From Prolixibacteraceae bacterium (lineage in GTDB: Bacteria > Bacteroidota > Bacteroidia > Bacteroidales > Prolixibacteraceae): a stretch of 64,000 nt of DNA. Under the pieces are notes generated by a model, which was not told the origin of the DNA, ran no database searches, and saw nothing but the letters and a program-made list of their open reading frames with translations. Position numbers and translations under genes: made by a program. Each line of letters starts with the position of its first letter. Positions within the stretch are counted from its first letter, which is position 1. The stretch spans positions 1-64,000 of the forward strand of contig JAQUIJ010000006.1 in assembly GCA_028683385.1 (NCBI GenBank), in the 5' to 3' direction. This document shows positions 4,959 to 16,899 of the stretch, piece after piece.

Positions 4959-5882
4959 TTACAAAACAGTATGGATAATTACGACTAGTGATAAAACCGA
5001 AATGAAAGCCCAAAGTAAAACTCCCTGGATGAGCGGTTTTATGCCGACCGAAGCAACTAGAGCTTTTGAAAGACTTGACCCGATTAAAAAGAGTGTAATT
5101 TTTAGCCCAATTTTTGAAATCACCACGATGGCTGAAGCTTCGGCATGTATGGCTGGCACAAACGTGTTGAGCAGCATGGCCAAAACAAAGAGGAAGATAA
5201 AATAGGGGATTTTTACCTTTTTTGACTCGCTTTTAAAAACGAACACTGAGATTATGGCCAAAGGGATAATCCACAAAGCCCTTTCGAGTTTGATGGTTGT
5301 GGCTATTTGCAGCGCCTCGGCTCCATATTGATTGGCTGCACCAACCACCGAACTGGTATCGTGAATGGCTATGGCTGCCCACACTCCAAACTGATGCTGA
5401 GAAAGATGCAAGAGATGACCAATCCATGGAAATAGAAAAAGTGCGACTGAATTCAAAACAAAAACAGTTCCCAAAGCTGTTGAAATTTGCTTTTCGTTCG
5501 ACTTAACAATTGTTGAAATCGCGGCAATGGCAGATCCACCACAAATGGCTGTTCCTGTCGAAATCAGGTACGACGTGTTGTTTTCAACTTTCAGGCGTTT
5601 CCCAATCAATAAGCCTAATGTTAGCGTGGTCGTTATTGAAAAAATGGTAAACAAAAGGCCTTGTTTACCGGCGTCAAGCGCCTGCCAGGCATTCATCCCG
5701 AAACCCAAACCGACAACTGAAACCTGCAATAAAATATGAGTTAGTTTTTTGCTCGTTTTGTGAAACGGATGTTTAATGGTTTGTGCCAGGATAATTCCAA
5801 TGAGTAAGGCAAACGGAGTATCAATAAAAGGAAAGGTGCATATTAGAATAACTCCAATGTAGATAATCTTGGGTACGTTCAT
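4959..5882 (-). CDS. YeiH family putative sulfate/sulfur-compound exporter
   Basis: This 307-residue membrane protein of the UPF0324/YeiH family has about ten hydrophobic segments. The family core GTAICGGSAIAAIS sits near residues 112-125 and AAIAIHDTSSVVGAA near 170-185. YeiH relatives are called sulfate exporters by annotation, and the best-studied context is next to the LysR regulator YeiE. Here a LysR gene lies directly upstream on the same strand, 76 bp away. The gene is followed by chrA after 43 bp. Export of sulfite or another sulfur oxyanion is a reasonable guess; the substrate is not shown by the sequence. Confidence 0.85.
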   Translation of the reverse strand: MNVPKIIYIGVILICTFPFIDTPFALLIGIILAQTIKHPFHKTSKKLTHILLQVSVVGLGFGMNAWQALDAGKQGLLFTIFSITTTLTLGLLIGKRLKVENNTSYLISTGTAICGGSAIAAISTIVKSNEKQISTALGTVFVLNSVALFLFPWIGHLLHLSQHQFGVWAAIAIHDTSSVVGAANQYGAEALQIATTIKLERALWIIPLAIISVFVFKSESKKVKIPYFIFLFVLAMLLNTFVPAIHAEASAIVVISKIGLKITLFLIGSSLSKALVASVGIKPLIQGVLLWAFISVLSLVVIIHTVL

Positions 5883-5958
5883 TACGACTGGTTTTTGTTA
5901 CCGCAAACGTAACTCAAAGAAAATCAGTAGTCAAATTGTAAAAAGTTATGCCTGATAA

Positions 5959-6852
5959 CTACAAGTTATAATGCTGTTGAACGAAATTCAGGAATAGCTT
6001 GACAAGCCCAACAGGTTCAGGACCTTGTGGCGAAATGAAATAGAATTGACGGTTAAATTTTAGGCCTGAAGTATTAATTTGCCTGAAGATCTGATTCGAT
6101 AATTCGGGTTCAATTGCAAAGCGCGATGCAATTCCAACGCCGTTACCCGTTTTTATAAACGATTTTATGGCTTCGGTACTTCCCAGAAACAGCAATACAT
6201 TCAATTGTTTCGGACTAATCTGGCCTTGCTGAAGATTTTTTTCAATGATTTCCAAGGTTCCTGAACCTCTTTCACGCAAAACCAGCGGAAGTTTCAGGAA
6301 TTCGTCGTTTGTAACGGAGTTTGGAATGGAGGTGTTTCGTGTCGAAGTAAAGACCAATAGTTCGTCGTTCAGGAACGAAGAATACCGGATGTCAGCATTC
6401 GAAGGTTTTCCCTCTACAATTCCAATGTCAATTTCGTTTTTCAGGAGACGTTTTTCAATCGCTTCGGTATTCCCGTTAATGAGTGATAGCTTTATTTCGG
6501 GAAATCGCTGGTTGAACTTTGCCAGACCTGCCGGGATTACATACTGCGAAATGGTTGAACTGGCGCCTATCCGAAGGGCGCCTTCAGGATTTCCGTTGAG
6601 TTGGCTTAACTCAAATTTGATTTCGTTGTGCAGCGAAACGATTCGATCGGTGTAGGCTAGCAAAATTTCGCCGGCCGTTGTAAGCGATATTTTATTGCCA
6701 ATCCGGTTAAACAGCTTTACCTCATACTCCGATTCCAGCTCTTTAATGTGTTTCGAAATGGCGGGCTGAGTAATAAACAACTCGTTTGATGCTTTTGTAA
6801 AGCTCAAATTCAGGGCAACACTTTGAAAAACTTTTAGTCGGAAATCAACCAT
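5959..6852 (-). CDS. LysR family transcriptional regulator
   Basis: This 297-residue protein has an N-terminal winged helix-turn-helix (about residues 3-60, with ASNELFITQPAISKHIKELE) and a C-terminal periplasmic-binding-protein-like effector domain (about 90-290, beginning ALRIGASSTISQYVIP). The effector region resembles the CysB/CbbR/YeiE branch. It lies 19 bp after the DUF5320 gene and 76 bp before the YeiH-type exporter, all on the minus strand. It therefore probably rides on the DUF134-controlled transcript as well as regulating the exporter genes downstream. The usual divergent LysR layout is absent. The effector is unknown; a sulfur metabolite is inferred from context. Confidence 0.85.
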   Translation of the reverse strand: MVDFRLKVFQSVALNLSFTKASNELFITQPAISKHIKELESEYEVKLFNRIGNKISLTTAGEILLAYTDRIVSLHNEIKFELSQLNGNPEGALRIGASSTISQYVIPAGLAKFNQRFPEIKLSLINGNTEAIEKRLLKNEIDIGIVEGKPSNADIRYSSFLNDELLVFTSTRNTSIPNSVTNDEFLKLPLVLRERGSGTLEIIEKNLQQGQISPKQLNVLLFLGSTEAIKSFIKTGNGVGIASRFAIEPELSNQIFRQINTSGLKFNRQFYFISPQGPEPVGLVKLFLNFVQQHYNL

Positions 6853-7406: not shown

Positions 7407-7982
7407 TTAATTACAATTTTCGTTACTTGTTTTATGATTGTGAGGAGTTCCTTTTCGCACCATTTGGCAATTACAATCCGGGCAAATCTCATTTCTGCAA
7501 GGAGTTGTTGGCAAATGAACCTTTTCGTATCCACACTTTGGACAAATGCAGATGTCTTCTGCTGAAGTTAACCTGACATTCTCATTGTACTGTTCAATAT
7601 CGGAAGAACCGCAAAGCGTGCAATTCTTCACCTCCAGTTCCTTCTCCGGATGATTGAACCAACAGCCACAATTTTTACACGAATACCATTCGGTGTCGAA
7701 ATATACCTTACCTCCTTCAAAAACAATTGCTTTGCCTTGAACAAAAGCCTGGGCGACTTTGCGGCGAGCGCTTTCATAGATACGGGCAAAAGTGGGTCGT
7801 GAAACTTCCATGATTTTAGCAGCTTCCACCTGACCATTAAGTTCAAAATCGCTTAGCCGAATGGCTTCGTACTCCTCAAAATTAATAACGACGGGGTTAT
7901 TTTCTTCGGGTAAACCCATAGGCCTGAATCCCTTAAAATGAGGAGGATTATTCATTTTACGTATTCGCTTTGGTCTTGGCAT
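7407..7982 (-). CDS. DUF134 (UPF0251) regulator with C-terminal zinc ribbons
   Basis: This 191-residue protein has the DUF134 opening MPRPKRIRKMNNPPHFKGF and the EEYEAIRLSDFELNGQ segment. A helix-turn-helix follows (about 50-85: QVEAAKIMEVSRPTFARIYESARRKVA), resembling sigma-70 region 4. The C-terminal half holds Cys pairs for two zinc or iron sites: CKNC/CTLC at about 105-130 and CICPKC/CPDC at about 155-180. Family members are predicted DNA-binding proteins that travel with NifX-like proteins. Its promoter contains the palindrome proposed here as its own operator (8013-8030), so autoregulation is likely. Confidence 0.85.
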   Translation of the reverse strand: MPRPKRIRKMNNPPHFKGFRPMGLPEENNPVVINFEEYEAIRLSDFELNGQVEAAKIMEVSRPTFARIYESARRKVAQAFVQGKAIVFEGGKVYFDTEWYSCKNCGCWFNHPEKELEVKNCTLCGSSDIEQYNENVRLTSAEDICICPKCGYEKVHLPTTPCRNEICPDCNCQMVRKGTPHNHKTSNENCN

Positions 7983-8005
7983 AAATTATTAGCATTTGAT
8001 TGAAA

Positions 8006-8030
8006 CAAATATAACGAGCATTTGCTCATT
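8006..8030 (-). promoter_or_regulatory. DUF134-1 promoter and proposed operator
   Basis: The minus-strand -7 box TATATTTG lies at 8006-8013, about 24 bp before the DUF134 start. Directly upstream is AACGAGCA-TT-TGCTCATT (8013-8030), a dyad with one mismatch in 8-bp arms. The same dyad occurs at 13129-13150 and 16880-16895. A repressor here would block RNA polymerase. Confidence 0.65.
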
Positions 8031-8052
8031 ATGAATATATTTTTTACCTTTG
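8021..8052 (+). promoter_or_regulatory. Divergent promoter for 8102-9012
   Basis: TTTG at 8021-8024 and TACCTTTG at 8045-8052 are spaced by 20 bases and match the Bacteroidota -33/-7 consensus. The -33 element lies inside the DUF134 operator, so the same regulator may control the membrane protein and peroxiredoxin-like genes. Confidence 0.55.
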
Positions 8053-8101
8053 ATTTTATTCAAATGGTTAAGTTGATGAATCTAAGCTAAAATTAATCAA
8101 A

Positions 8102-8326
8102 ATGAAACATTCACTGGTAAAATTGCTGCTCATTATTCCAGCTCTTCTTTTTTTGGATTGGATAATCATGGTTCTGGTTGGATCTGTTTCAAATATTCTT
8201 GGTGCAAATGATAATTTTTTCTGTACCATTTATTGCGATTTCGGTATTGCATTGCTTATTGAAACGATTCTATTTGTTGTGTATATAGCTATTAATCAGA
8301 ATTTTCATCACAAGGTGCAAATCTAA
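8102..8326 (+). CDS. Small two-helix membrane protein
   Basis: This 74-residue protein has two hydrophobic segments (about 5-32 and 46-66) separated by a short polar stretch with two Cys (NFFCTIYC). No family was recognised. A good promoter precedes it and the peroxiredoxin-like gene starts 14 bp after its stop, so the two are probably co-transcribed. The Cys pair beside the membrane could be redox active or bind metal, which is speculation. Confidence 0.55.
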   Translation: MKHSLVKLLLIIPALLFLDWIIMVLVGSVSNILGANDNFFCTIYCDFGIALLIETILFVVYIAINQNFHHKVQI

Positions 8327-8340
8327 TCTTGCAATAAAAG

Positions 8341-9012
8341 ATGGATGACTTCTTATCTCTTAATGAAACAAAAATTTCACGCATTGGCAACCAGGCTCCT
8401 GCATTTAGATCAGTAACAACGCAAGGTACTATTTATTTTCCTGCCGATTATTTTGGCAAATGGATCATTCTATTCAGCTATTCTCCCAATTTCGCTTCTG
8501 AATCTACTTCAGAACTTAAGATGTTAACTGCCGTGCAGAATGATTTTAAAGCGCTTAATTGTGAATTTATAGGCGTATCGATTGATGGATTGTGTCGCCA
8601 AACAACCACATCCCGATCCCTCAAAGAGCGAACGGAGCGCAATGGCAGGAAAGATTCCGGAATCAAAATTCCGGTCATCGAAGATATTACTATGGAAGTG
8701 GCCAGAAGATATGGCATGATTCCCCCAGACGAGAACCATGTAAAAGCGGTTCGCTCGGTATTTATTATTGATCCACTGTGCATGATCAGAAGTGTAATCA
8801 ATTCTCCTTTAGCTGTGGGTCTTAATTTTGATGAATTGAAACGGGTAATTGTAGCTCTTCAAACAGCAGATGCTTTTTGTGATGAAATTCCAGCCGGAGA
8901 ATACAATATTGCTGGTAAACACATTGAAAACCAAATGCTAGGCACGAAATCGCCGAAGTGGTTTTTGTGCACCAAAGAATTATCGGAAGAAAAAGTGATG
9001 AACTCAAATTAG
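8341..9012 (+). CDS. Peroxiredoxin-like protein lacking the catalytic Cys
   Basis: This 223-residue protein aligns end to end with the Prx6/1-Cys peroxiredoxin group. It has GNQAPAFRSVTTQG, FGKWIILFSYSPNF, the VRSVFIIDPLCMIR strand with the conserved Arg, and the C-terminal dimerisation part (LQTADAFCDEIPAG). In active enzymes the loop reads PxxxTxxC; here it reads SPNFASES, with Ser55 where the peroxidatic Cys should be and the Pro and Thr also changed. It cannot act as a normal peroxidase. The frame is intact with no sign of decay, so a sensory or structural role is more likely than a pseudogene. It follows the small membrane protein gene by 14 bp and ends at a strong terminator. Confidence 0.75.
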   Translation: MDDFLSLNETKISRIGNQAPAFRSVTTQGTIYFPADYFGKWIILFSYSPNFASESTSELKMLTAVQNDFKALNCEFIGVSIDGLCRQTTTSRSLKERTERNGRKDSGIKIPVIEDITMEVARRYGMIPPDENHVKAVRSVFIIDPLCMIRSVINSPLAVGLNFDELKRVIVALQTADAFCDEIPAGEYNIAGKHIENQMLGTKSPKWFLCTKELSEEKVMNSN

Positions 9013-9030
9013 AACCAAATAGTGATTAGA

Positions 9031-9085
9031 ACCAAACAAAAATCGGTTATTCCAGAATTTATGAGATAACCGATTTTTGTTTGGT
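9031..9085. terminator. Strong bidirectional terminator
   Basis: A perfect 20-bp stem (9031-9050 with 9066-9085) encloses a 15-base loop, with T/A-rich flanks inside the stem. It lies between the convergent peroxiredoxin-like gene and the YeeE/YedE-rhodanese gene and should stop both transcripts. Confidence 0.85.
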
Positions 9086-9113
9086 CGTTTAATTTCAAAC
9101 CCATCCTGAAACG

Positions 9114-10310
9114 CTAACACCCACCTTTTATTTTTGATGTTTTCACAATCACAGGTTCAGTCGAATTTTTAAGCGCTTCAACCAGCATTTTCATGTCGGT
9201 GGCTGCTTTTTGCCTGAAATTATAAGTGTTCAACTCATTTTTGCTTGCATTTGAATCTGGAGGAGTCAGGTTAGAAAATAAGTTTTTAAAATCTGACGAC
9301 GATTCGATGAGAATATAATTTTCAGCTTTGCCCAGAAATTCAGCTTTCAAATATCCTTTCTTAGCAAGTTGTTGATCATCAGCATAAAAATAATTTGTCT
9401 TGTGTTTTTGATCCAGAATTGTTTTCCATTGCCTGTCGCTCATCTTGTCAAACGGAATATTAATTGCAAAAGGCAAATGATAAGCTTTGAAAGCTTCAGG
9501 AGAGCGAACATCGATGATATTGATTCGGTAATAATTATTTACAATTTCTGTTGCCAGCTTATCTGCCGGGACTTCCACCGTAGTTAAATCTGAATGAGCA
9601 AGTGCGTGATTAATTCTTGATTCCAAACGACTGTATCTATCCGGCATAATGGCGATAATGATTAACACTGCAAATGCAAAACCGACAGCCGACAAATATC
9701 CGTATACCCGTCTTTTAGGTAATTTCGACTGATCATTGTTTACCTTTTTTTCGATTAAGCGGGTGAGAAAGAAAGCGATAAATGCAATCGCAGTCAGGAG
9801 GAATCCGAACACAATTTTCGACATTCCCAGTTTTTCGTTAATCAGAACCGGTCCCCAGGCTTCAGCGAGGTAGATTTTTTCAAACATCGGATATCCTTGA
9901 GCAAAGGCAAGAACGCCAAGTCCTGATCCGAAGACAAAAGCCAAGCCGTCAAGTTTTCCAATGGAAGCAGCACAAACACTGGTTCCCGGACAAAAGCCAC
10001 CAATAATAAAACCCAAACCCATGATTGCTCCTCCAACGAGTGCGGACCAAAGAAATGTTGGATTAATATAGATCAGGCTCAAATCGAGAATTCCCATCTG
10101 GCCGAACAATAAGACTCCAATCATGGCGGTTATTCCGGCGGTAAAAAATACTTTAAGCACGGTAAAATCGTATCCGTAGAATAAACCAACCAATTTTTTG
10201 GTTGAAGAAAAACCTGCCTGCTCAAGAGTAAATCCAAAGCCAATTCCGGCAATTAGTGCAACGATCAGATTAAATTCATTGCTGATAATATTTGGTACTA
10301 ATGGTCCCAT
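9114..10310 (-). CDS. YeeE/YedE transporter fused to rhodanese-like domain
   Basis: This encodes about 398 residues from the ATG at 10310 (an upstream TTG is possible). The first 230 or so residues are a YeeE/YedE (TsuA-type) membrane domain with the signature GGFCPGTSVCAA near residue 104; relatives import thiosulfate through conserved Cys residues. Residues about 245-345 form a rhodanese-like domain (INIIDVRSPEAFKAYHLPFAINIP), but the active-site loop reads YFYADDQQLAKKGY and has no Cys, so it should not transfer sulfur by the usual mechanism. The gene is last in the octahaem cytochrome operon, 5 bp after another YeeE/YedE gene. Import or export of thiosulfate or a similar sulfur compound is inferred. 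Confidence 0.85.
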   Translation of the reverse strand: MGPLVPNIISNEFNLIVALIAGIGFGFTLEQAGFSSTKKLVGLFYGYDFTVLKVFFTAGITAMIGVLLFGQMGILDLSLIYINPTFLWSALVGGAIMGLGFIIGGFCPGTSVCAASIGKLDGLAFVFGSGLGVLAFAQGYPMFEKIYLAEAWGPVLINEKLGMSKIVFGFLLTAIAFIAFFLTRLIEKKVNNDQSKLPKRRVYGYLSAVGFAFAVLIIIAIMPDRYSRLESRINHALAHSDLTTVEVPADKLATEIVNNYYRINIIDVRSPEAFKAYHLPFAINIPFDKMSDRQWKTILDQKHKTNYFYADDQQLAKKGYLKAEFLGKAENYILIESSSDFKNLFSNLTPPDSNASKNELNTYNFRQKAATDMKMLVEALKNSTEPVIVKTSKIKGGC

Positions 10311-10315
10311 GTCAA

Positions 10316-10834
10316 TTATTTTAACCAAAGTTTTCTAAAGAAATAAGCAAAAGCATAACCCGATCCAAAAATAGCGATCATGGTGATGATACCTCCGAAT
10401 GACATTACGGCCATTCCACTTAACGCTGCTCCGCTGGTGCATCCACGCCCAAGTTGCGAGCCTAAGCCAAAAAGTGCCCCTCCAATAATAGCGGCAATTA
10501 TGCGTGTGCTGTTGGTAATGTTTGGACCCCGCTCCAACTTAATTCCAACCCTGTTTGAAATCACTCCGGAAAAAAAAGCGCCGATGACAACGCCAACCAC
10601 TTCCCAAACAAGCCAATCTTTCAATGGACCTCCGGGATGCTCTTCGTGATACGATTTGATGAAAGGAGTATTGGCCGAATGTTGGGGAGCCACCTCAACA
10701 ACTGAAGTAACAACCACACTTTTAATTGCACCACTGGCTCCCAGACCTCGCCCGGTCACATATATTGTTCCAAGCAAAACCAAGCCAAGTAAAAACCCGG
10801 CCAGATACGGGTTCATGTATTTATTTGGTTTCAT
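10316..10834 (-). CDS. YeeE/YedE family transporter half
   Basis: This is a membrane protein of about 172 residues. The ATG at 10834 overlaps the cytochrome b gene by 14 bp; another in-frame ATG at 10816 (MNPYLAGF) lies just after that gene's stop and is also plausible. It holds the second YeeE/YedE signature, GLGSQLGRGCTSGAALSG, at about residues 125-142. Together with the next gene it gives the two-gene YeeE/YedE arrangement seen for thiosulfate-type transport, each with a conserved Cys in a re-entrant loop. Substrate is inferred from family and operon. Confidence 0.85.
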   Translation of the reverse strand: MKPNKYMNPYLAGFLLGLVLLGTIYVTGRGLGASGAIKSVVVTSVVEVAPQHSANTPFIKSYHEEHPGGPLKDWLVWEVVGVVIGAFFSGVISNRVGIKLERGPNITNSTRIIAAIIGGALFGLGSQLGRGCTSGAALSGMAVMSFGGIITMIAIFGSGYAFAYFFRKLWLK

Positions 10835-11462
10835 GATTCTGTATATTTTCGTTTTCATTTTCTTCAAGTTCCTCGTAACCGGTAATCATCGCGTTGATAT
10901 TTGATGTTGGTGTTTTCCCGGTGGTGGTCATATAAACGTGAACAACAAGAAATATCATCAGCAAAATTGCTCCCATGGTATGCCAAAATGCAATGCTGGC
11001 AAGTGGGTAATCTTCAATAACAATCAGATTATTTTCATCGATTGTTTTGTACAGCATGTATAAAATTCCGGAGGTAGTTGTTAAGGGGATAAGAATGATT
11101 TTAAACCCAAGATAAACAAGCCGTTGCAAAGGATTAAGTTTGCTAAGTTCTGACTTTTGGGTTGGATGGTGTTCCCCTTTAAATATTCCTGAAATATAGA
11201 ATTGAATCTGCTCTTTTAGTTGTTTGGTGGTTGGGATGTATTGTCGCCATTCGCCCGTTGTCAGGTGCCAGAAGATGGCAAAAATCAACAACCCGATTAG
11301 CATCCACGAAGCAACGCGGTGATATTCCGTTGCTTTTTCGAACCCGAATATGGAATATGAACCGTGAACTTCGAATCCGGTTACAGCCAGAAACATAATG
11401 AGCGAAGCCTGTGTCCAATGCCAAAAGCGTTCAAAACCTTTATAAATATATACTTTACGCAT
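10821..11462 (-). CDS. Cytochrome b561-type membrane subunit
   Basis: This 213-residue membrane protein has four hydrophobic helices and spaced His residues fit for two b haems (FERFWHWTQ, EYHRVASW, FAIFWHLTTG, AFWHTMGAILLMIFLVVHVY). It resembles the di-haem membrane subunits of formate dehydrogenase, hydrogenase and thiosulfate reductase (PhsC type). It starts 43 bp after the octahaem cytochrome gene. It would connect the quinone pool with the periplasmic octahaem enzyme. A Glu/Asn-rich tail (EELEENENENIQ) ends the protein. Confidence 0.8.
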   Translation of the reverse strand: MRKVYIYKGFERFWHWTQASLIMFLAVTGFEVHGSYSIFGFEKATEYHRVASWMLIGLLIFAIFWHLTTGEWRQYIPTTKQLKEQIQFYISGIFKGEHHPTQKSELSKLNPLQRLVYLGFKIILIPLTTTSGILYMLYKTIDENNLIVIEDYPLASIAFWHTMGAILLMIFLVVHVYMTTTGKTPTSNINAMITGYEELEENENENIQNHETK

Positions 11463-11505
11463 AGCTTATTTATTATACTAGTAATCTGATAGTTCATTTA
11501 TTGAG

Positions 11506-13110
11506 TTATTCTGTAGGCTTATCATCATCATAGTTAATGATTTGCTTCTCGTATTTATTCCTTCTAATCAATACAAAAATCCGAATTAAAGCGTGACCCA
11601 TTACTGCGGCAAGCGTTAGGAAAAATGCCCAAATTCCTATGCTATCCTGAACAACATTTCGGTCACGGCCAGGAAGATAGAATCCGGTTAATTTGGCCAA
11701 ACGACCGTTATCCCTGGTATGGCATTCAGCACAACTTACCGATTGTTCTTTTGGAGAAACCATGTGGTTTACAGGCCAGTACATCACAGTTTCTACAAAT
11801 CCGTACTGTCCGCTGTATTTTAGTCCTGATGTTTTCATTCCGGCGGCAACTGCTTTTTCCCAGTTAAAATCTTTCCAGAATGCGCTATCGCCTTCGGCAT
11901 CGCCATAAAGTTTGGGCTGTACCAATCGGTTATAAACCTTGTCGTAAATCTGATCGCCAACATGAATTTTTACAGGGATAATTTTTGAATGGCGATCGTT
12001 GTACGAACCGTTTAACGTATTCATTTTTACCGGAATCGATTGAATGCTGTCTCCCAACAAATAATGGTCAGCCGTGCCGTTAAACCAAATATAATCAGGC
12101 TTAACATTTCGCTCCCAAACAAACGAACCTTTAATCGACATGTAATTGTGATTGCCCAACGAATCTTCTTCTTCATAAGGCTTTCCATCTTTCAATTTCC
12201 CGGCGTCCGACCATTTCCACGACATTTTTGTTGAATTTACCTTGGCGTACTGCGGAATGTGACAGGTCTGACAGGCGATCCTCGAACCATGACGATTGAG
12301 CACTTCACGAAGGTGAGGAGTTGAAGTGTGGCATTGTTCGCAGGTTGCCCGGTTCGTATTATCTGAAGAAACCGAATATAATTTACCTATGATGTTGTGA
12401 TTTTTTGCTGTATGGCAGGCAACACACTCCATGTTCATACCGTTTGCTCCCATGTGAACATCAACATCGCGACTACACGAGTTTAATGCAACATCCAGGT
12501 CGCCATGTTTCACATTATTTCCACCCCCGCCAAACGAGTGGCATGATCCACAATTGCTTTTGCGGGGAGAACCTACACTCTGAGCCACGTTTTCAAGGTT
12601 TACCGTACGATCGGGATACCCCGCCATTGAAGCTCCTTTCAGATATTCTTCACTGTTGTCGTGACACACCATACAATCAACATTCCGTGCATTGTTAAAA
12701 TCAAATTGGCTACTGGTCATTCCGTAACCAATGTGGCATTTTGCGCACGACTGTTGGTTGGAATTCGTCCCGATACAAAAATTATTCATTACGTTTTTCT
12801 TTCCAGCGGACGAAATACCGCGCCCCTCAACGTATGATGCCCTTTCCCAATTCCAATGCGAAGAAGCCATTACCTCTTTGTGTGTTTCGGTGTGGCACGA
12901 AAGACAGGCTTCCGTTACTTCCTGCGGAGTTTTAAATTCCTTTTGCAAGGCCGGAAGTTTGCTGTGATCGACGGAAGGAACTGCTTTTAATGCATAGTTG
13001 TGCTTCAGTTCTTCTAATTTGAGGTTATAATTATCGTCTCTGTGGAGTATGTTTACCATTACCAGCGCGATAATGACAACAAGAATTACAAATATCAGAT
13101 TCCTTTGCAT
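11506..13110 (-). CDS. Octahaem tetrathionate reductase family cytochrome c
   Basis: This encodes about 534 residues. The ATG at 13110 is preferred to the GTG at 13128 because it gives a clean N-terminal anchor (MQRNLIFVILVVIIALVMV). Eight CxxCH haem sites are present: CLSCH, CAKCH, CMVCH, CGSCH, CVACH, CEQCH, CQTCH and CAECH. A C-terminal helix (about 495-520) adds a second membrane anchor. The spacing of the early sites and the NFCIGTNSNQQSCAKCH region fit the octahaem tetrathionate reductase family, whose Shewanella member reduces tetrathionate and, in vitro, nitrite and hydroxylamine. The downstream cytochrome b and YeeE/YedE genes support a sulfur-compound reductase. The physiological substrate is not proved. 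Confidence 0.85.
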   Translation of the reverse strand: MQRNLIFVILVVIIALVMVNILHRDDNYNLKLEELKHNYALKAVPSVDHSKLPALQKEFKTPQEVTEACLSCHTETHKEVMASSHWNWERASYVEGRGISSAGKKNVMNNFCIGTNSNQQSCAKCHIGYGMTSSQFDFNNARNVDCMVCHDNSEEYLKGASMAGYPDRTVNLENVAQSVGSPRKSNCGSCHSFGGGGNNVKHGDLDVALNSCSRDVDVHMGANGMNMECVACHTAKNHNIIGKLYSVSSDNTNRATCEQCHTSTPHLREVLNRHGSRIACQTCHIPQYAKVNSTKMSWKWSDAGKLKDGKPYEEEDSLGNHNYMSIKGSFVWERNVKPDYIWFNGTADHYLLGDSIQSIPVKMNTLNGSYNDRHSKIIPVKIHVGDQIYDKVYNRLVQPKLYGDAEGDSAFWKDFNWEKAVAAGMKTSGLKYSGQYGFVETVMYWPVNHMVSPKEQSVSCAECHTRDNGRLAKLTGFYLPGRDRNVVQDSIGIWAFFLTLAAVMGHALIRIFVLIRRNKYEKQIINYDDDKPTE

Positions 13111-13128
13111 AGCATACTTAAATAACAC

Positions 13129-13169
13129 ATAATGAGCATTTGCTCATTATAATTAAAAATGCAAATATA
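13129..13169 (-). promoter_or_regulatory. Octahaem operon promoter and perfect DUF134-type operator
   Basis: The minus-strand -7 box TATATTTG lies at 13162-13169. The dyad ATAATGAGCA-TT-TGCTCATTAT (13129-13150) has perfect 10-bp arms and lies just downstream of the expected transcription start, inside the leader. It is the best copy of the palindrome shared with both DUF134 promoters, so repression by a DUF134 protein is the simplest reading. Confidence 0.65.
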
Positions 13170-13299
13170 ATAATATATCAATACATGGAAAGTTAATATT
13201 GAAAAATTACCTGTTTGGGTGAAAAAAGTTGAGTTTTATTTGTCGATTTACAGATGGGAATGATTCAGGAAGAATATTGGACTTGAAAATTTAGGTATA

Positions 13300-13352
13300 A
13301 AAAAACTGATCAAATAAATAAACGACTGGTTTACTCATTTGATCAGTTTTTT
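13300..13352 (-). terminator. Terminator after thioredoxin operon
   Basis: A 16-bp perfect stem (13300-13315 with 13337-13352) ends in A/T runs on both sides. It lies 46 bp beyond the stop of the thioredoxin gene and insulates it from the octahaem operon. Confidence 0.8.
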
Positions 13353-13397
13353 AGTTCAGGTTTCTCTCCTGATTATGCTTTTGATTTGTGTTTGGTA

Positions 13398-13871
13398 TTA
13401 TTCAACCAATAAAACTTCATGAATTGCTTTCACGAGGGTTTCTTTTGGTAAAGCTCCCATGGTAGCCTGAGGTTGGCCTTTGACGGGAATAAACAATAGG
13501 GTTGGCAAACTTTGAATTCCCATGTTTTGCGCGAGCAATTGTTCGGCATCGGTGTCAACTTTATAGACGATGATCTTTCCGGCGTATTCTTTCGCAATTT
13601 CTTCTACGCGAGGCGATAGTTGTCTGCAAGGGCCACACCAACTGGCATAAAAGTCAATAATTACGGGCAGGTTTCCTTCGAATTTCCACTCTTTATTAAC
13701 CTCGTAATTAAAAATCTTCTGCTTGAAAATCTCGTTTGTCAAAATATTCACTGATCCAACTCCTGTTGTGGATGCGACAGTCTTATTCGTTGTTTTTTCA
13801 GGATTACCTGCATTACAGTTGCTTAGTAATAGCACTAACCCAAGCGATATAAATATTACAACTTTTTTCAT
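13398..13871 (-). CDS. Thioredoxin-fold lipoprotein
   Basis: This encodes about 157 residues from the ATG at 13871, which gives a lipoprotein signal (MKKVVIFISLGLVLLLSNC). The mature part is a full thioredoxin domain with the active site ASWCGPCRQL, the cis-Pro region IQSLPTLLFIP and the VDTDAEQLLAQ segment. It should be a periplasm-facing, lipid-anchored disulfide reductase or oxidase. It follows the DUF6132 gene, whose stop overlaps the longer possible start. The neighbouring multihaem cytochrome operon needs reduced Cys for haem attachment, which could explain the proximity (inference). Confidence 0.85.
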   Translation of the reverse strand: MKKVVIFISLGLVLLLSNCNAGNPEKTTNKTVASTTGVGSVNILTNEIFKQKIFNYEVNKEWKFEGNLPVIIDFYASWCGPCRQLSPRVEEIAKEYAGKIIVYKVDTDAEQLLAQNMGIQSLPTLLFIPVKGQPQATMGALPKETLVKAIHEVLLVE

Positions 13872-13897
13872 GATCTTATTTTTATTGATTTTATTAT

Positions 13898-14143
13898 CTA
13901 GCATCTACCTCTGGCACAAGGACTATTCACCAAAAAGTAACCCATCGCACCACCCCAGATGGTACTCATATACGGACTGCTTGTAATGGCGCAGGTTCCT
14001 GAAGAACATCCAACAAAATGATAGTACGAAAATCCGGCGATGGCTCCAACAGCAACACTTAAAAATGGTCTCCAGAATTTCCATGTTTTAAGATTCTCTT
14101 TGAATGTTCCCGGGTTTGGTTTAATTTCACAATTGTTTTCCAT
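13898..14143 (-). CDS. DUF6132-type small membrane protein
   Basis: This 81-residue protein has two hydrophobic helices around a conserved loop with GCSSGTCAITSSPYMSTIWG, the pattern of DUF6132 proteins in Bacteroidota. It ends in PCARGRC. The Cys residues in the loop (C..GTC) and tail could bind metal or take part in thiol exchange. It is directly upstream of the thioredoxin lipoprotein and probably co-transcribed. The family has no assigned role; a YeeE/YedE-like sulfur link has not been shown. Confidence 0.7.
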   Translation of the reverse strand: MENNCEIKPNPGTFKENLKTWKFWRPFLSVAVGAIAGFSYYHFVGCSSGTCAITSSPYMSTIWGGAMGYFLVNSPCARGRC

Positions 14144-14169
14144 AGCACATTTTCTAAATTGTTTGACAG

Positions 14170-14246
14170 CAAAAATAGTAATAAAACAGATTAAATCGCA
14201 TTAGTGACACTTAAATCTTTTTAGTGACACTATTTTTTTACATTTG
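14170..14246. promoter_or_regulatory. Divergent promoters with two direct operator repeats
   Basis: Minus-strand -7 box TATTTTTG (14170-14177) serves the DUF6132-thioredoxin pair and plus-strand TACATTTG (14239-14246) serves the zinc-ribbon gene. Between them TTAGTGACACT occurs at 14201-14211 and 14221-14231, exactly 20 bp apart, two helical turns. Each copy is itself a TAGTG-A-CACT(A) dyad. A dimeric regulator bound in tandem could control both directions. Confidence 0.6.
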
Positions 14247-14265
14247 CACCGCGGAGAATTAAAAT

Positions 14266-14700
14266 ATGAGCGTAATATTCAGTAATAGCCTTAGTCCTGA
14301 ACAACTTGAAGAGATGTTTAGAAATGATGAAAAGTGTCTCGAATTTTTAGCCGGGATCAAATGGGCGAATGGTTTTGTATGCAAAAAATGTGGGAATACG
14401 AATTCTTGTGCCGGAAAGGAACCGTTTTCGCGACGTTGTACCAAATGTAAGGCCAAAGAAACGGCTACAAATGGCACCGTTTTTCATGGCGTTAAATTTC
14501 CGATCAGTAAAGCTTTTTACATCGCTTATCAGGTTTGCAAAGGCAAGGAGGATGTTTCGTCGTACGAGTTTGGACGCCGACTTTCGTTACGCCAAATGAC
14601 TTGCTGGAACTTCAAAACCAAAATACAGCATGCACTCGATGAAATGGATTCGCTCACCGAAAATGAACGAAATTCGATGGAGAAAATTCTGACAAGCTAA
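14266..14700 (+). CDS. Stand-alone IS1595-type zinc-ribbon protein
   Basis: This 144-residue protein resembles only the N-terminal part of ISXO2/IS1595 transposases. A zinc ribbon CKKCGNTNSCAGKEPF...RRCTKCKAKE (about 39-66) is followed by the TNGTVFHGVKFPISKAFYIAY helix segment. The DDE catalytic domain is missing, and no terminal repeats or target duplication surround the gene. It has its own well-formed promoter with tandem operators. It may be a transposase-derived DNA-binding regulator, possibly of this divergent region, or a decayed insertion; the clean frame and stop favour the first. Function is unknown. Confidence 0.65.
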   Translation: MSVIFSNSLSPEQLEEMFRNDEKCLEFLAGIKWANGFVCKKCGNTNSCAGKEPFSRRCTKCKAKETATNGTVFHGVKFPISKAFYIAYQVCKGKEDVSSYEFGRRLSLRQMTCWNFKTKIQHALDEMDSLTENERNSMEKILTS

Positions 14701-14709
14701 AGTTTTTGT

Positions 14710-14859
14710 TTACCGAACCGGATACACTTCCATACTACCGCACGAAGGGCAAACTTCAACTTTATCGCTTCCGGAGCAGGTATCAACATCTTCCCAGTCG
14801 ACCTCTTCGGCCGATCCCTGCCAATTGCACTGCTTACATTTCAGAATAGTTGATTCCAT
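14710..14859 (-). CDS. 49-residue zinc-ribbon protein
   Basis: This short gene reads MESTILKCKQCNWQG and ends CPSCGSMEVYPVR. Two CxxC knuckles 25 residues apart form a rubredoxin- or zinc-ribbon-like site. It starts 9 bp after the stop of the methyltransferase gene, so both share a transcript, and it converges with the IS1595-type gene with a 9-bp gap. The acidic middle (AEEVDWEDVD) is unlike a DNA-binding protein. No function is assigned. Confidence 0.65.
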   Translation of the reverse strand: MESTILKCKQCNWQGSAEEVDWEDVDTCSGSDKVEVCPSCGSMEVYPVR

Positions 14860-14868
14860 GAGGCTGGA

Positions 14869-15468
14869 TTATTTTTGACCGACCAGTAAGAAAACCGGGT
14901 ATTTGGCGCCCGACTCACGTTTAACCTCGAAACAAGTTTTGTATTTAATATTCTTAAAACCGGTGATTTGCAAGATTTCAGTTAATTTATCAGGATCAAA
15001 ACCCAGGTGAACTTTGACGTCTGGACCATGAAACGAACCATCTTCAGGATACAAATCAGCAATGGCCAAATACCCTTCCGGATTTAGCATGGAATAAAAA
15101 GTACCGATTATACTTTCATAATCACCTACATGATGTAATACCATCTGATTGTAAATGATATCGAAATTTCCATCATAATCCTTGTGTTCCAGATCGAACC
15201 AAATGGGCAGAATGTGATTGGTTTGGTAGAATTCAGTCTTCTCGGCACACACTTTGATCATTTCCTGAGAATTATCCATCAGGGTGATTTCCGAAAACCG
15301 ATCTTTCAGCAGAAAACTGAGGATTCCTGTACCTGCTCCATATTCAAGAGCTTTCATGGAAGGGTTGAGGGGAACCATCTTTTCGAGTTCAGCAGCAATG
15401 GCTACCGAACGATCCATGTGCATTTTATCTTTGTCCCACTCACGGGCTCGGGCATCAAATTCGCTCAT
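14869..15468 (-). CDS. Class I SAM-dependent methyltransferase
   Basis: This 199-residue protein has the Rossmann methyltransferase core: motif I ALEYGAGTGILSFLL (about 40-54), motif II acidic residue in ITLMDNSQEM, and the FDIIYNQMVLHHVGDYE block. It resembles the UbiE/Tam-like group (Methyltransf_11/25). The substrate cannot be told from sequence. It is followed by a small zinc-ribbon gene. Neighbouring metal and sulfur genes raise the possibility of a role with a metalloid or thiol, but this is only context. Confidence 0.8.
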   Translation of the reverse strand: MSEFDARAREWDKDKMHMDRSVAIAAELEKMVPLNPSMKALEYGAGTGILSFLLKDRFSEITLMDNSQEMIKVCAEKTEFYQTNHILPIWFDLEHKDYDGNFDIIYNQMVLHHVGDYESIIGTFYSMLNPEGYLAIADLYPEDGSFHGPDVKVHLGFDPDKLTEILQITGFKNIKYKTCFEVKRESGAKYPVFLLVGQK

Positions 15469-15576
15469 TATGTTTTTCTTTAATTGGTGAATACAATCGA
15501 TATCGGTTTTCTTACTTTTTTACAAACAATCAATGGTCACCATGAACTTGTTTCAGTGTCTGATCAGCCTACAGAT

Positions 15577-15763
15577 GCTGAAACAAAAGTGATTATGCTT
15601 TTTCAAAAACTTACAATTTGAAAGTACGGACATTGTTAAACCCCTAAATCCCCTCAAGGGGACTTCAAAGCCGCCCCTTCAGGGGAGGTTTGGAGGGGTG
15701 AAATGAAGGCGAACTTACAATTTGAAAGTTGCATTTGTGAAATTTTGACTTTTGATACAACCT
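15577..15763. mobile_element. MITE-like repeat, copy 1
   Basis: About 187 bp closely matching 40144-40352. The right end ACTTTTGATACAACCT is intact; the left end is altered (GCTGAAACAAAAGT). Inside are two direct copies of AACTTACAATTTGAAAGT and a GC-rich dyad with CCCCTTCAGGGG. It has no coding capacity. It fills most of the 410-bp gap between the methyltransferase and NifX-like genes. A hairpin CTTGTTTCAG...CTGAAACAA abuts it on the left. The remainder of the gap (15764-15878) shows nothing recognisable. Confidence 0.65.
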
Positions 15764-15878
15764 TTACGTTGCGATACGACCCAGATGACACGACATGATT
15801 ATACTAACAGCCGAAACCGATATTTGATCGGGACATAAAGAAAACTAATTTTTGAATCGACTTTACATCAAATCGATA

Positions 15879-16253
15879 TTAATGTGAGCACTGATGTTCT
15901 TCGCCTTCATGCTCATGATGCGAACAGCCTACTCCGGAATCGCCTATTTTGCCTTCTAAAAATGATTCGGTTAATTCACGCACATCGCCTGAACAGCCCC
16001 GATAAACTTCAATTCCATGTCGGTTAAGTACATTTAATGCGCCACCGCCCATGTTTCCGGCAAGCATTACTGTTATGCCCATTTCTTTCAAAACTGAGGC
16101 GATATTGCTTTTACAACCACAACCTTGTGGCGATGGCAATAATTCGGTTTTTTCAATTTTGTTACTTGCATCAACGGTAAAAATGGTGTATGCTTCGCAA
16201 TGACCAAAATGGTCATCAACATTATTTCCCCTTGTTGGTACTGCTACTTTCAT
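15879..16253 (-). CDS. NifB/NifX family protein with metal-binding tail
   Basis: This 124-residue protein is a second dinitrogenase cofactor-domain protein. It opens MKVAVPTRGNNVDDHFGHCEAY, with HFGHC in place of HFGRC, then SPQGCGCKSNIASVL and GNMGGGALNVLNRHGIEVYRG. It ends in a Cys/His cluster (CSHHEHEGEEHQCSH) that looks like a metal-binding tail. It overlaps the zinc-ribbon frame upstream by about 30 bp, so the two are translationally coupled. Together with DUF134-2 it mirrors the cluster at 7068-7982, but DUF5320 is missing. Confidence 0.85.
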   Translation of the reverse strand: MKVAVPTRGNNVDDHFGHCEAYTIFTVDASNKIEKTELLPSPQGCGCKSNIASVLKEMGITVMLAGNMGGGALNVLNRHGIEVYRGCSGDVRELTESFLEGKIGDSGVGCSHHEHEGEEHQCSH

Positions 16254-16428
16254 GATTTATTTCTCCTAATTTTTGTAAATATAACTGGTGATGATAACTT
16301 CCTTCACGCATCATTTTTTTGCCACATTGCGGGCACATTGTTTCACGACACGGAGTCCCCACTGCATGTAAAATCCGCAAATTACAATGCACACAAATAC
16401 AATATCCGTTGCAATCAGTTGGTTCCAT
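16222..16428 (-). CDS. Zinc-ribbon fragment homologous to DUF134 C-terminus
   Basis: This 68-residue frame begins inside the end of DUF134-2 (ATG 14 bases before that gene's stop, +1 frame) and holds CICVHC, TPCRETMCPQCGKKM and a YHHQ stretch. The same elements form the C-terminus of the longer DUF134 protein at 7407-7982 (CICPKC, TPCRNEICPDC). The gene may therefore be a split-off domain made by coupled re-initiation, the product of a frameshift mutation, or joined by programmed frameshifting. The tail after the ribbon is probably non-homologous sequence overlapping the NifX-like start. Confidence 0.6.
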   Translation of the reverse strand: MEPTDCNGYCICVHCNLRILHAVGTPCRETMCPQCGKKMMREGSYHHQLYLQKLGEINHESSSTNKGK

Positions 16429-16837
16429 TGGTCCCGATCATTTTGTTTAACCTGCGCAAGGTTTTCGATTGGCAGTAGTTGCAGGTATTTATTTCGGTCT
16501 GGCAAATATTCAGTTTCATGCAGTTGTCGCATCGGTACCAGCATTCTTCGGTATGGTAATTTCCACCTTCAATAAAAATGGCTTTTCCTTCAACAAATGC
16601 CTTCGCAATGGTCCGTCTGGCCTTTTCATAAATTCGGGTAAATGTTGGACGTGAAACGTTCATGTGTTCAGACGATTGTTCCTGAGTAAGTCCCTCATAG
16701 TCTGATAATCTGATCGATTCATATTCTTCGTACAACAAAATGACCGGTTCTAAATTCGTCATCGGGATTCCGAAAGGTTTAAATCCTTCCATGACGGGAG
16801 GGTTAACAATCGATCGACTCCGCTTTGGCCTGGCCAT
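16415..16837 (-). CDS. DUF134 regulator, shorter form
   Basis: This 140-residue protein shows the DUF134 core (MARPKRSRSIVNPPVMEGFKPFG, then YEEYESIRLSDYEGLTQ) and helix-turn-helix (about 52-85: QEQSSEHMNVSRPTFTRIYEKARRTIA). Its first Cys region (YRCDNCMKLNICQTEINTCNYC) is present, but the protein stops where the longer paralogue continues into the second zinc ribbon. That ribbon is encoded in the overlapping +1 frame. The promoter carries a close copy of the proposed DUF134 palindrome, so auto- or cross-regulation is expected. Confidence 0.8.
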   Translation of the reverse strand: MARPKRSRSIVNPPVMEGFKPFGIPMTNLEPVILLYEEYESIRLSDYEGLTQEQSSEHMNVSRPTFTRIYEKARRTIAKAFVEGKAIFIEGGNYHTEECWYRCDNCMKLNICQTEINTCNYCQSKTLRRLNKMIGTNGTN

Positions 16838-16862
16838 GCTAATTATTTTAATTCTTTCGAAG

Positions 16863-16899
16863 CAAAAGTATAAATAATAATGAACAAATGCTCATAATT
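16863..16899 (-). promoter_or_regulatory. DUF134-2 promoter and proposed operator
   Basis: The minus-strand -7 box TACTTTTG lies at 16863-16870. ATGAACA-AA-TGCTCAT (16880-16895) is the third copy of the palindrome, with one mismatch in 7-bp arms and further symmetric A/T bases to 16876 and 16899. It lies between the -33 and -7 positions, as at 8013-8030. Confidence 0.6.

Follow-up and report, generated by a model that had tools for sequence, protein, structure and literature searches.

Repressors of the LexA and TetR type are the classic palindrome-binding autorepressors, and they are the closest described systems to the element discussed here, a palindrome upstream of genes of the DUF134 family. 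On the side of the regulated genes, the closest systems are those of ORP/MrpORP and IssA, as proteins encoded next to DUF134 share a domain with them (the ORP part of MrpORP; IPR003731); these systems are described with other regulators, and ORP operons are said, in the title of a 2011 report by Fievet, to have one of the sigma-54 type. The DUF134 family itself (PF02001, which we take to be also UPF0251 and COG1342) is annotated as of function unknown (NCBIfam 'hypothetical protein'). The stretch that was analysed (the window, 64,000 nucleotides, positions 1 to 64,000 of contig JAQUIJ010000006.1 in assembly GCA_028683385.1) comes from a Prolixibacteraceae bacterium of the order Bacteroidales and contains two DUF134 genes and an octahaem cytochrome operon, each with a copy of the palindrome. 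A first-pass annotation of the window had suggested that DUF134 regulates itself through this palindrome, and this is strongly supported, as such sites are found in bacterial phyla and archaea and a base of the site covaries with a residue of the protein. New with respect to that proposal, and likewise strongly supported by sequence comparison, is that the site appears to be a property of the DUF134 family as a whole and that the covariation names DUF134 as its reader; most likely, DUF134 is an autorepressor of ORP/NifX-type iron-sulfur genes. With the LexA/TetR-type autorepressors it has in common a palindrome at its own promoter that overlaps polymerase contacts, including one shared between divergent operons in the relative G123, and it differs from them in its fold, in the exact abutment of the site on the -7 box, in tandem sites 26 bp apart, and in a one-residue base code that extends across phyla.

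Of the genomes sampled, 82 of 149 in the order and 61 of 81 in a Clostridia phylum have DUF134, which is rarer in Desulfobacterota (18/59) and a methanogen phylum (8/61), with 15 and 3 of these over the profile cut-off; phyla are named here after the record titles of central loci. The 200 bp upstream of DUF134 genes were searched with the pattern ATGARCANNTGYTCAT, excluding upstream stretches below 60 bp and duplicate proteins; the places of the order that were omitted are mostly contig-end or fragmentary, and of six added later five were usable, the other one (L397) being a fragment. With up to two mismatches, the pattern is found upstream of 88 of 109 order genes, and neither the reversed pattern (0/109) nor shuffled DNA (0/109) gives any such site. 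Sixteen of the 109 genes had been found via the motif itself, and without them the count is 72 of 93, a set that includes the four genes of this genome and in which all are family members by profile, as are both window proteins. A symmetric matrix that was trained only on these 93 genes, with its threshold at 1 per cent of dinucleotide shuffles, finds sites at 81 of them (reversed 1/93) and transfers to 23 of 51 DUF134 genes outside the order (reversed 0/51), namely to 12/18 in Desulfobacterota, 9/30 in the Clostridia phylum (the 30 best-scoring places) and 2/3 in the methanogen phylum.

Perfect copies tell the same. Across sequenced prokaryotes, the perfect 16-mer occurs in at least 118 stretches, and among the matches listed 50 are intergenic and 68 inside open reading frames (ORFs); 17 of these 50 directly precede DUF134 (16) or DUF5320 (1), and none of the 68 is so placed. 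In the order, exact matches to ATGARCANNTGYTCAT number 38 and are spread over 32 of 149 genomes (10/149 for the reversed pattern); of the genomes that have DUF134, 24 of 82 contain such an exact site, vs 8 of 67 of those that lack it (p 0.008). When 29 of the exact sites were read, 11 were found before DUF134, six before DUF5320-type genes (two confirmed by Pfam, four by resemblance), and one at the head of a ferredoxin-MinD-MinD-DUF134-NifX operon, with five inside genes (L239, L244, L248, L256, L258) and six ahead of unrelated genes or of no evident gene (L240, L243, L251, L252, L255, L263). The site of L242 had been called 'inside' by script due to an over-long DUF134 frame and lies upstream of the likely start (L198); the exact site of G102:C12 is also within an ORF (L385).

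The half-sites are found in the variants TGAAC, TGAGC, TGAGAA, TGCAC and TTGAC. Of the 101 DUF134 columns aligned, column 67 is the best predictor of the base at position -4, with 0.76 bit of excess mutual information; it is residue 66 of DUF134-1 and the x in SRPTFxR, and column 64 of the same helix comes next (0.41 bit). Gly at column 67 goes with G at -4 in 28 of 28 cases, and 11 of 16 cases with Ala have G in both halves, whereas Thr goes with A in both halves (46/55) and Ser with A (7/11). A rule of two classes, with A for Thr, Ser, His, Phe and Cys and G for all other residues, fits 87 of 91 symmetric sites when motif-found genes are excluded and 16 of 107 sites with unequal halves or without A or G at -4 are left out; two of the four misfits have Gln. 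In disjoint pairs of relatives, 41 of 43 that differ at -4 differ also at column 67, vs 12 of 52 pairs that agree at -4, and while the agreeing pairs are closer kin (mean identity 0.64 vs 0.51), no other column splits both sets equally well. On a tree that was built without the recognition helix, column 67 changes on five of nine base-change branches (p 3e-4, the next column being at 0.08), and without the motif-found genes it is still the top column by information and by tree (4/8, p 0.003 for the latter). It had also been predicted in writing that the second DUF134 of G066 has Gly, Ala or Gln, as a TGAGC site heads its operon, and the protein reads SRQTFGR; four further genes, read later without written prediction, agree as well (5/5 in all, the sixth being a fragment).

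As the base at -4 follows a residue of the recognition helix and the later-read genes agree, it is very probable that DUF134 itself reads the palindrome, TTATG-A-(A/G)-CAT / ATG-(T/C)-T-CATAA. The residue at x in S-R-P-T-F-x-R, which is Ala66 of DUF134-1, would set the base at -4 of the half-site, with Thr or Ser (also His and Phe) for A as in TGAAC, Gly or Ala for G as in TGAGC, and Gln for either. In this genome, DUF134-1 (Ala) agrees with the rule by its TGAGC halves, and the sites of DUF134-2 (Thr) and DUF134-4 (Ser) are hybrids. A subgroup of DUF134 proteins (L185, L202, L204, L225, L227, L235, L236, L394, L395) mostly has Ala and sites of the type TGAGAATATTCTCA; as these have A instead of C at base -3, a further residue must contribute. 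The residue three before the coding residue in the recognition helix may tune base -5.

In the structure model of DUF134-1, with a mean pLDDT of 82.8, helices are predicted at 35-46, 51-57 and 62-82, with the coding residue near the start of the last one, and the predicted helix-turn-helix (residues 30-84) resembles sigma-70 region 4 on superposition, at a level that is insufficient alone to prove kinship. DUF134-2 also has a weak match to the sigma70-ECF profile (23.4 bits, E 3.7e-5, profile 121-164 only; cut-off 42.9), and DUF134-1 has none; being below the cut-off and without region 2, the proteins are not members of the ECF sigma factors, from which they differ also in the site, a palindrome around the promoter instead of one -35 element. 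A search by sequence gave no solved structural relative (the five matches, with E 0.18-0.83, were regarded as spurious). The sigma-region-4-like domain, at about residues 30-84, would bind the palindrome, presumably as a dimer.

At 51 of 81 order sites the first base of the -7 box is the one that follows the 16-mer, and 24 of these 51 have in addition a TTG 23 nt further upstream; ten of the 81 have a -7 box only upstream and seven have it at +9. A second site lies within 60 bp in 40 of 83 order cases vs 8 of 83 with shuffled flanks, the spacing being exactly 26 bp in 18 of the 83, and both octahaem sites of the genome are positioned after the -7 box. The operator would mostly fill the promoter spacer up to the box, or follow the box, frequently as a pair with 26-bp spacing that flanks it, and as a protein bound at either placement should block RNA polymerase, repression of the own operon by DUF134 is the simpler reading. 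A MerR-like function, in which DUF134 reads the same site but activates from within the promoter spacer, appears rather unlikely: one exact distance to the -7 box in 51 of 81 sites is as rigid as in an activator site, and the TTG in 24 of 51 would fit as well, but other sites lie wholly after the box, as in both octahaem operons here, where activation is hard to picture, in the 26-bp pairs at least the downstream site does so too, and PF02001 is the only Pfam match of DUF134-1 and DUF134-2 at E 0.001, with no MerR domain found. The Cys-rich C-terminal part of DUF134-1 is missing from short family members, and that it senses metal, a cluster or the redox state is a guess. It can nevertheless be regarded as highly probable that DUF134 is a sequence-specific regulator with a residue code that represses its own iron-sulfur operon, joined in this organism by the octahaem operon; we infer binding, dimer formation, repression and an iron-sulfur, sulfur or redox signal.

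Several points weigh against DUF134 as a palindrome-reading repressor of its own genes. Outside the order, the strict pattern is found at only 4/30 genes of the Clostridia phylum and 7/18 of Desulfobacterota (2/3 in the methanogen phylum), and the matrix finds no site at 20-21/30 and 6/18 of the former two. DUF134-3 of the same genome has Thr and yet TGAGC halves, proteins with Gln at column 67 are mixed (G in both halves in 5/9), and independent base changes on the tree are few (8-9), with only about half co-changing. The fold matches cover no more than about 50 residues and none of them reaches E <= 0.001, and for repression the argument is one of placement throughout. There are also the exact sites in the eight order genomes without DUF134, one of which (G104) lies before DUF5320. 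These could mean that a different regulator reads the palindrome and that DUF134 genes are merely among its targets, and a LysR gene is indeed located near DUF134-1 (5959-6852), but this is very improbable, as the -4 base follows the helix residue above any other DUF134 column, on the tree and in the later-read genes too, and several of the eight sites are within genes or precede unrelated genes. In G104 (L241), which is 99 per cent complete and in which no DUF134 was found, the DUF5320 gene has a perfect operator. The LysR gene of the window adjoins a YeiH-like membrane protein gene (4959-6852 together), and its product scores just below the cut-off of the NCBIfam selenium-metabolism LysR model (238 of 250 bits).

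As to the window itself, the first-pass annotation had counted the dyad three times, and it is present at all three places, with one perfect 16-mer at the octahaem operon, where a 22-mer (13129-13150) has perfect 10-bp arms as had been described, and one mismatch each in the copies of DUF134-1 (ACGAGCATTTGCTCAT) and DUF134-2 (16880-16895, ATGAACAAATGCTCAT). TAnnTTTG boxes on the minus strand lie 0, 14 and 9 bp from the 16-mers of DUF134-1, the octahaem operon and DUF134-2, within the roughly 30 bp originally given. The learned matrix, the training set of which included these same genes, scores the three copies, in the same order, at 27.0, 31.8 and 31.1, and the next best place of the window at 10.2. 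The whole genome (5.9 Mb, 54 contigs) has three perfect copies, at the octahaem operon of the window, at a second one (C34:255131) and at a DUF134 gene (C34:181780), and none of the reversed pattern. Each of its four DUF134 genes has a copy, the fourth (C34:188313) with two mismatches at the gene start, and one more site, scoring 25.3, lies ahead of a NifX-like gene that is beside a relaxase-like gene and without DUF134 (L024:14416), so that in the genome stretches read there are seven sites at DUF134, octahaem or NifX-like genes. Six copies in the genome have one mismatch; four of these are ATGAGCATTTGCTCTT, all in one unrelated dispersed repeat, and together with one ATGGGCATTTGCTCTT (C17:287632) in the same repeat they were excluded as operators. 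The repeat (G000:C2:384060, C17:162157, C17:287632, C25:68120, C37:99395; L025-L029) has a length of roughly 100 bp or more and an inner palindrome of its own, AATAGCCAT...ATGAGCATTTGCTCTTATGGCTATTT, which resembles the operator, with one to two mismatches. That the window copies are chance matches or members of this repeat has next to no probability: at three mismatches the window count of four does equal chance (shuffle mean 2.95, reached by 31 of 100 shuffles) and the repeat holds the four one-mismatch copies, but the window copies lie outside it, and relatives also have them at the same genes, which already contradicts this explanation.

Same-strand neighbours within 2.5 kb of 167 DUF134 genes, as counted with profiles that were made from a few sequences and on flanks that are often short, are NifX-like genes in 91 cases, DUF5320 in 53 and MinD-type ATPases with ferredoxin parts in 39, with none of these at 51 of the 167. 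Together with the exact sites before DUF5320-type genes, this bears out the place of NifX-like and DUF5320 proteins in the regulon, the predicted core of which is DUF134 with NifX/ORP-like, DUF5320 and MinD-ferredoxin ATPase genes; the repressed operon would make NifX/ORP-like and DUF5320 proteins and often such ATPases. IssA, of the same domain family (IPR003731) as the NifX-like neighbours, stores iron and sulfur (PMC5524996), and iron-sulfur handling is proposed for the NifX/ORP-like, DUF5320 and MinD-type set. In L024 (G000:C34:244000-260006), there is a second copy of the octahaem-to-NifX region of the window, beside the relaxase-like gene, in which the DUF134 gene is missing and the operator before NifX is retained.

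The octahaem operon is the less common part. The second one of this genome has a perfect site followed by the same b561 and YeeE/YedE genes, and with 31 of 35 octahaem places examined, sites within 300 bp are found at 5 of 23 loci of DUF134 genomes, or 6 of 23 with the site that heads a cupin-octahaem operon in G052, and at 0 of 8 loci of genomes without DUF134, a difference that is not significant alone (p 0.14). The operons with sites are both of this genome and those of G123, G103, G134 and G052, and in G123 a single palindrome lies between the divergently transcribed octahaem and DUF134 operons (L384); a weak AT-rich match at the octahaem locus of G066 (13.8, threshold 11.5) was not counted. 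The regulon that the first-pass annotation drew thus holds for the octahaem operon in this genome and four relatives and not for the other 17 of 23 loci, and for the sulfur-transporter genes only in so far as they are the presumed tail of the octahaem operon and not members by themselves. Octahaem control would be a minority trait of the DUF134 regulon, the octahaem/b561/YeeE operon having probably joined it in this genome and some relatives.

The identities of the window genes were confirmed by profiles (Table 1). All four DUF134 proteins of the genome exceed the Pfam gathering cut-off of 27 bits, and the octahaem cytochrome is well within its family (cut-off 375 bits), its tetrathionate activity being predicted only. 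The NifX-like proteins match the ORP part of MrpORP only (32.4 and 69 bits) and are not members of that family, the cut-off of which, for Mrp plus ORP, is 450. Divergent from DUF134-1 are genes for a small membrane protein and a peroxiredoxin-like protein (8102-9012), and the same pair is divergent from DUF134-3 (L023:4747-5679), so that the pair may share the operator.

Table 1. Predicted operators, promoter boxes and genes of the palindrome-bearing part of the window
Feature	Position	Strand	Remarks
Operator of DUF134-1 (predicted), 20-mer TAACGAGCATTTGCTCATTA	8012..8031	.	16-mer 8014-8029; TGAGC type in both halves
-7-type box TATATTTG	8006..8013	-	directly after the DUF134-1 16-mer
Weaker second site of DUF134-1	7986..8005	.	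exactly 26 bp downstream; score 9.9; one good half
DUF134-1, 191 aa	7407..7982	-	PF02001 82.7 bits; Cys-rich C-terminal part
DUF134-1 recognition helix 62-82, coding residue Ala66	within 7407..7982	-	structure model
NifX/ORP-like protein, 107 aa	7068..7391	-	PF02579; weak MrpORP match
DUF5320 protein, 62 aa	6872..7060	-	PF17253 32.4 bits, cut-off 27
Operator of octahaem operon (predicted) TAATGAGCATTTGCTCATTA	13130..13149	.	perfect 16-mer 13132-13147
-7-type box TATATTTG	13162..13169	-	14 bp upstream of octahaem operator
Octahaem cytochrome, tetrathionate reductase family	11506..13128	-	TIGR04315 581.1 bits; PF11783
Cytochrome b561-type partner	10821..11462	-	PF01292
YeeE/YedE half, Sulf_transp	10316..10867	-	PF04143
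YeeE/YedE half with rhodanese domain	9114..10328	-	PF04143, PF00581
Operator of DUF134-2 (predicted) TAATGAACAAATGCTCATAA	16878..16897	.	hybrid: TGAAC half and TGAGC half
-7-type box TACTTTTG	16863..16870	-	9 bp after the DUF134-2 16-mer
DUF134-2, 140 aa	16415..16837	-	PF02001 86.2 bits; Thr at coding position
NifX/ORP-like protein, 124 aa	15879..16253	-	PF02579; MrpORP ORP part 69 bits

No paper on DUF134 function or on a DUF134 operator was found among the open-access papers searched, in keeping with the first-pass annotation, which knew of no such operator; RegPrecise and subscription journals lie outside this search, and the operator may be in print. The name DUF134 occurs as a whole word in PMC7565180 and PMC8347963, whereas PMC10434189 and PMC8459023 match by prefix only. 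With the present analysis it gains a predicted operator, regulon and specificity residue, and the wider view, in which DUF134 of bacteria and archaea is a sigma-region-4-like domain turned palindrome-reading repressor, with a simple code and a conserved iron-sulfur carrier regulon that recruits respiratory operons, has somewhat more in its favour than against it. If true, this would assign to a widespread domain of function unknown a role, a DNA site and a specificity residue that can be tested; regulons could then be read from sequence by means of the site, which would also be a handle on the roles of the NifX/ORP-like and DUF5320 proteins.

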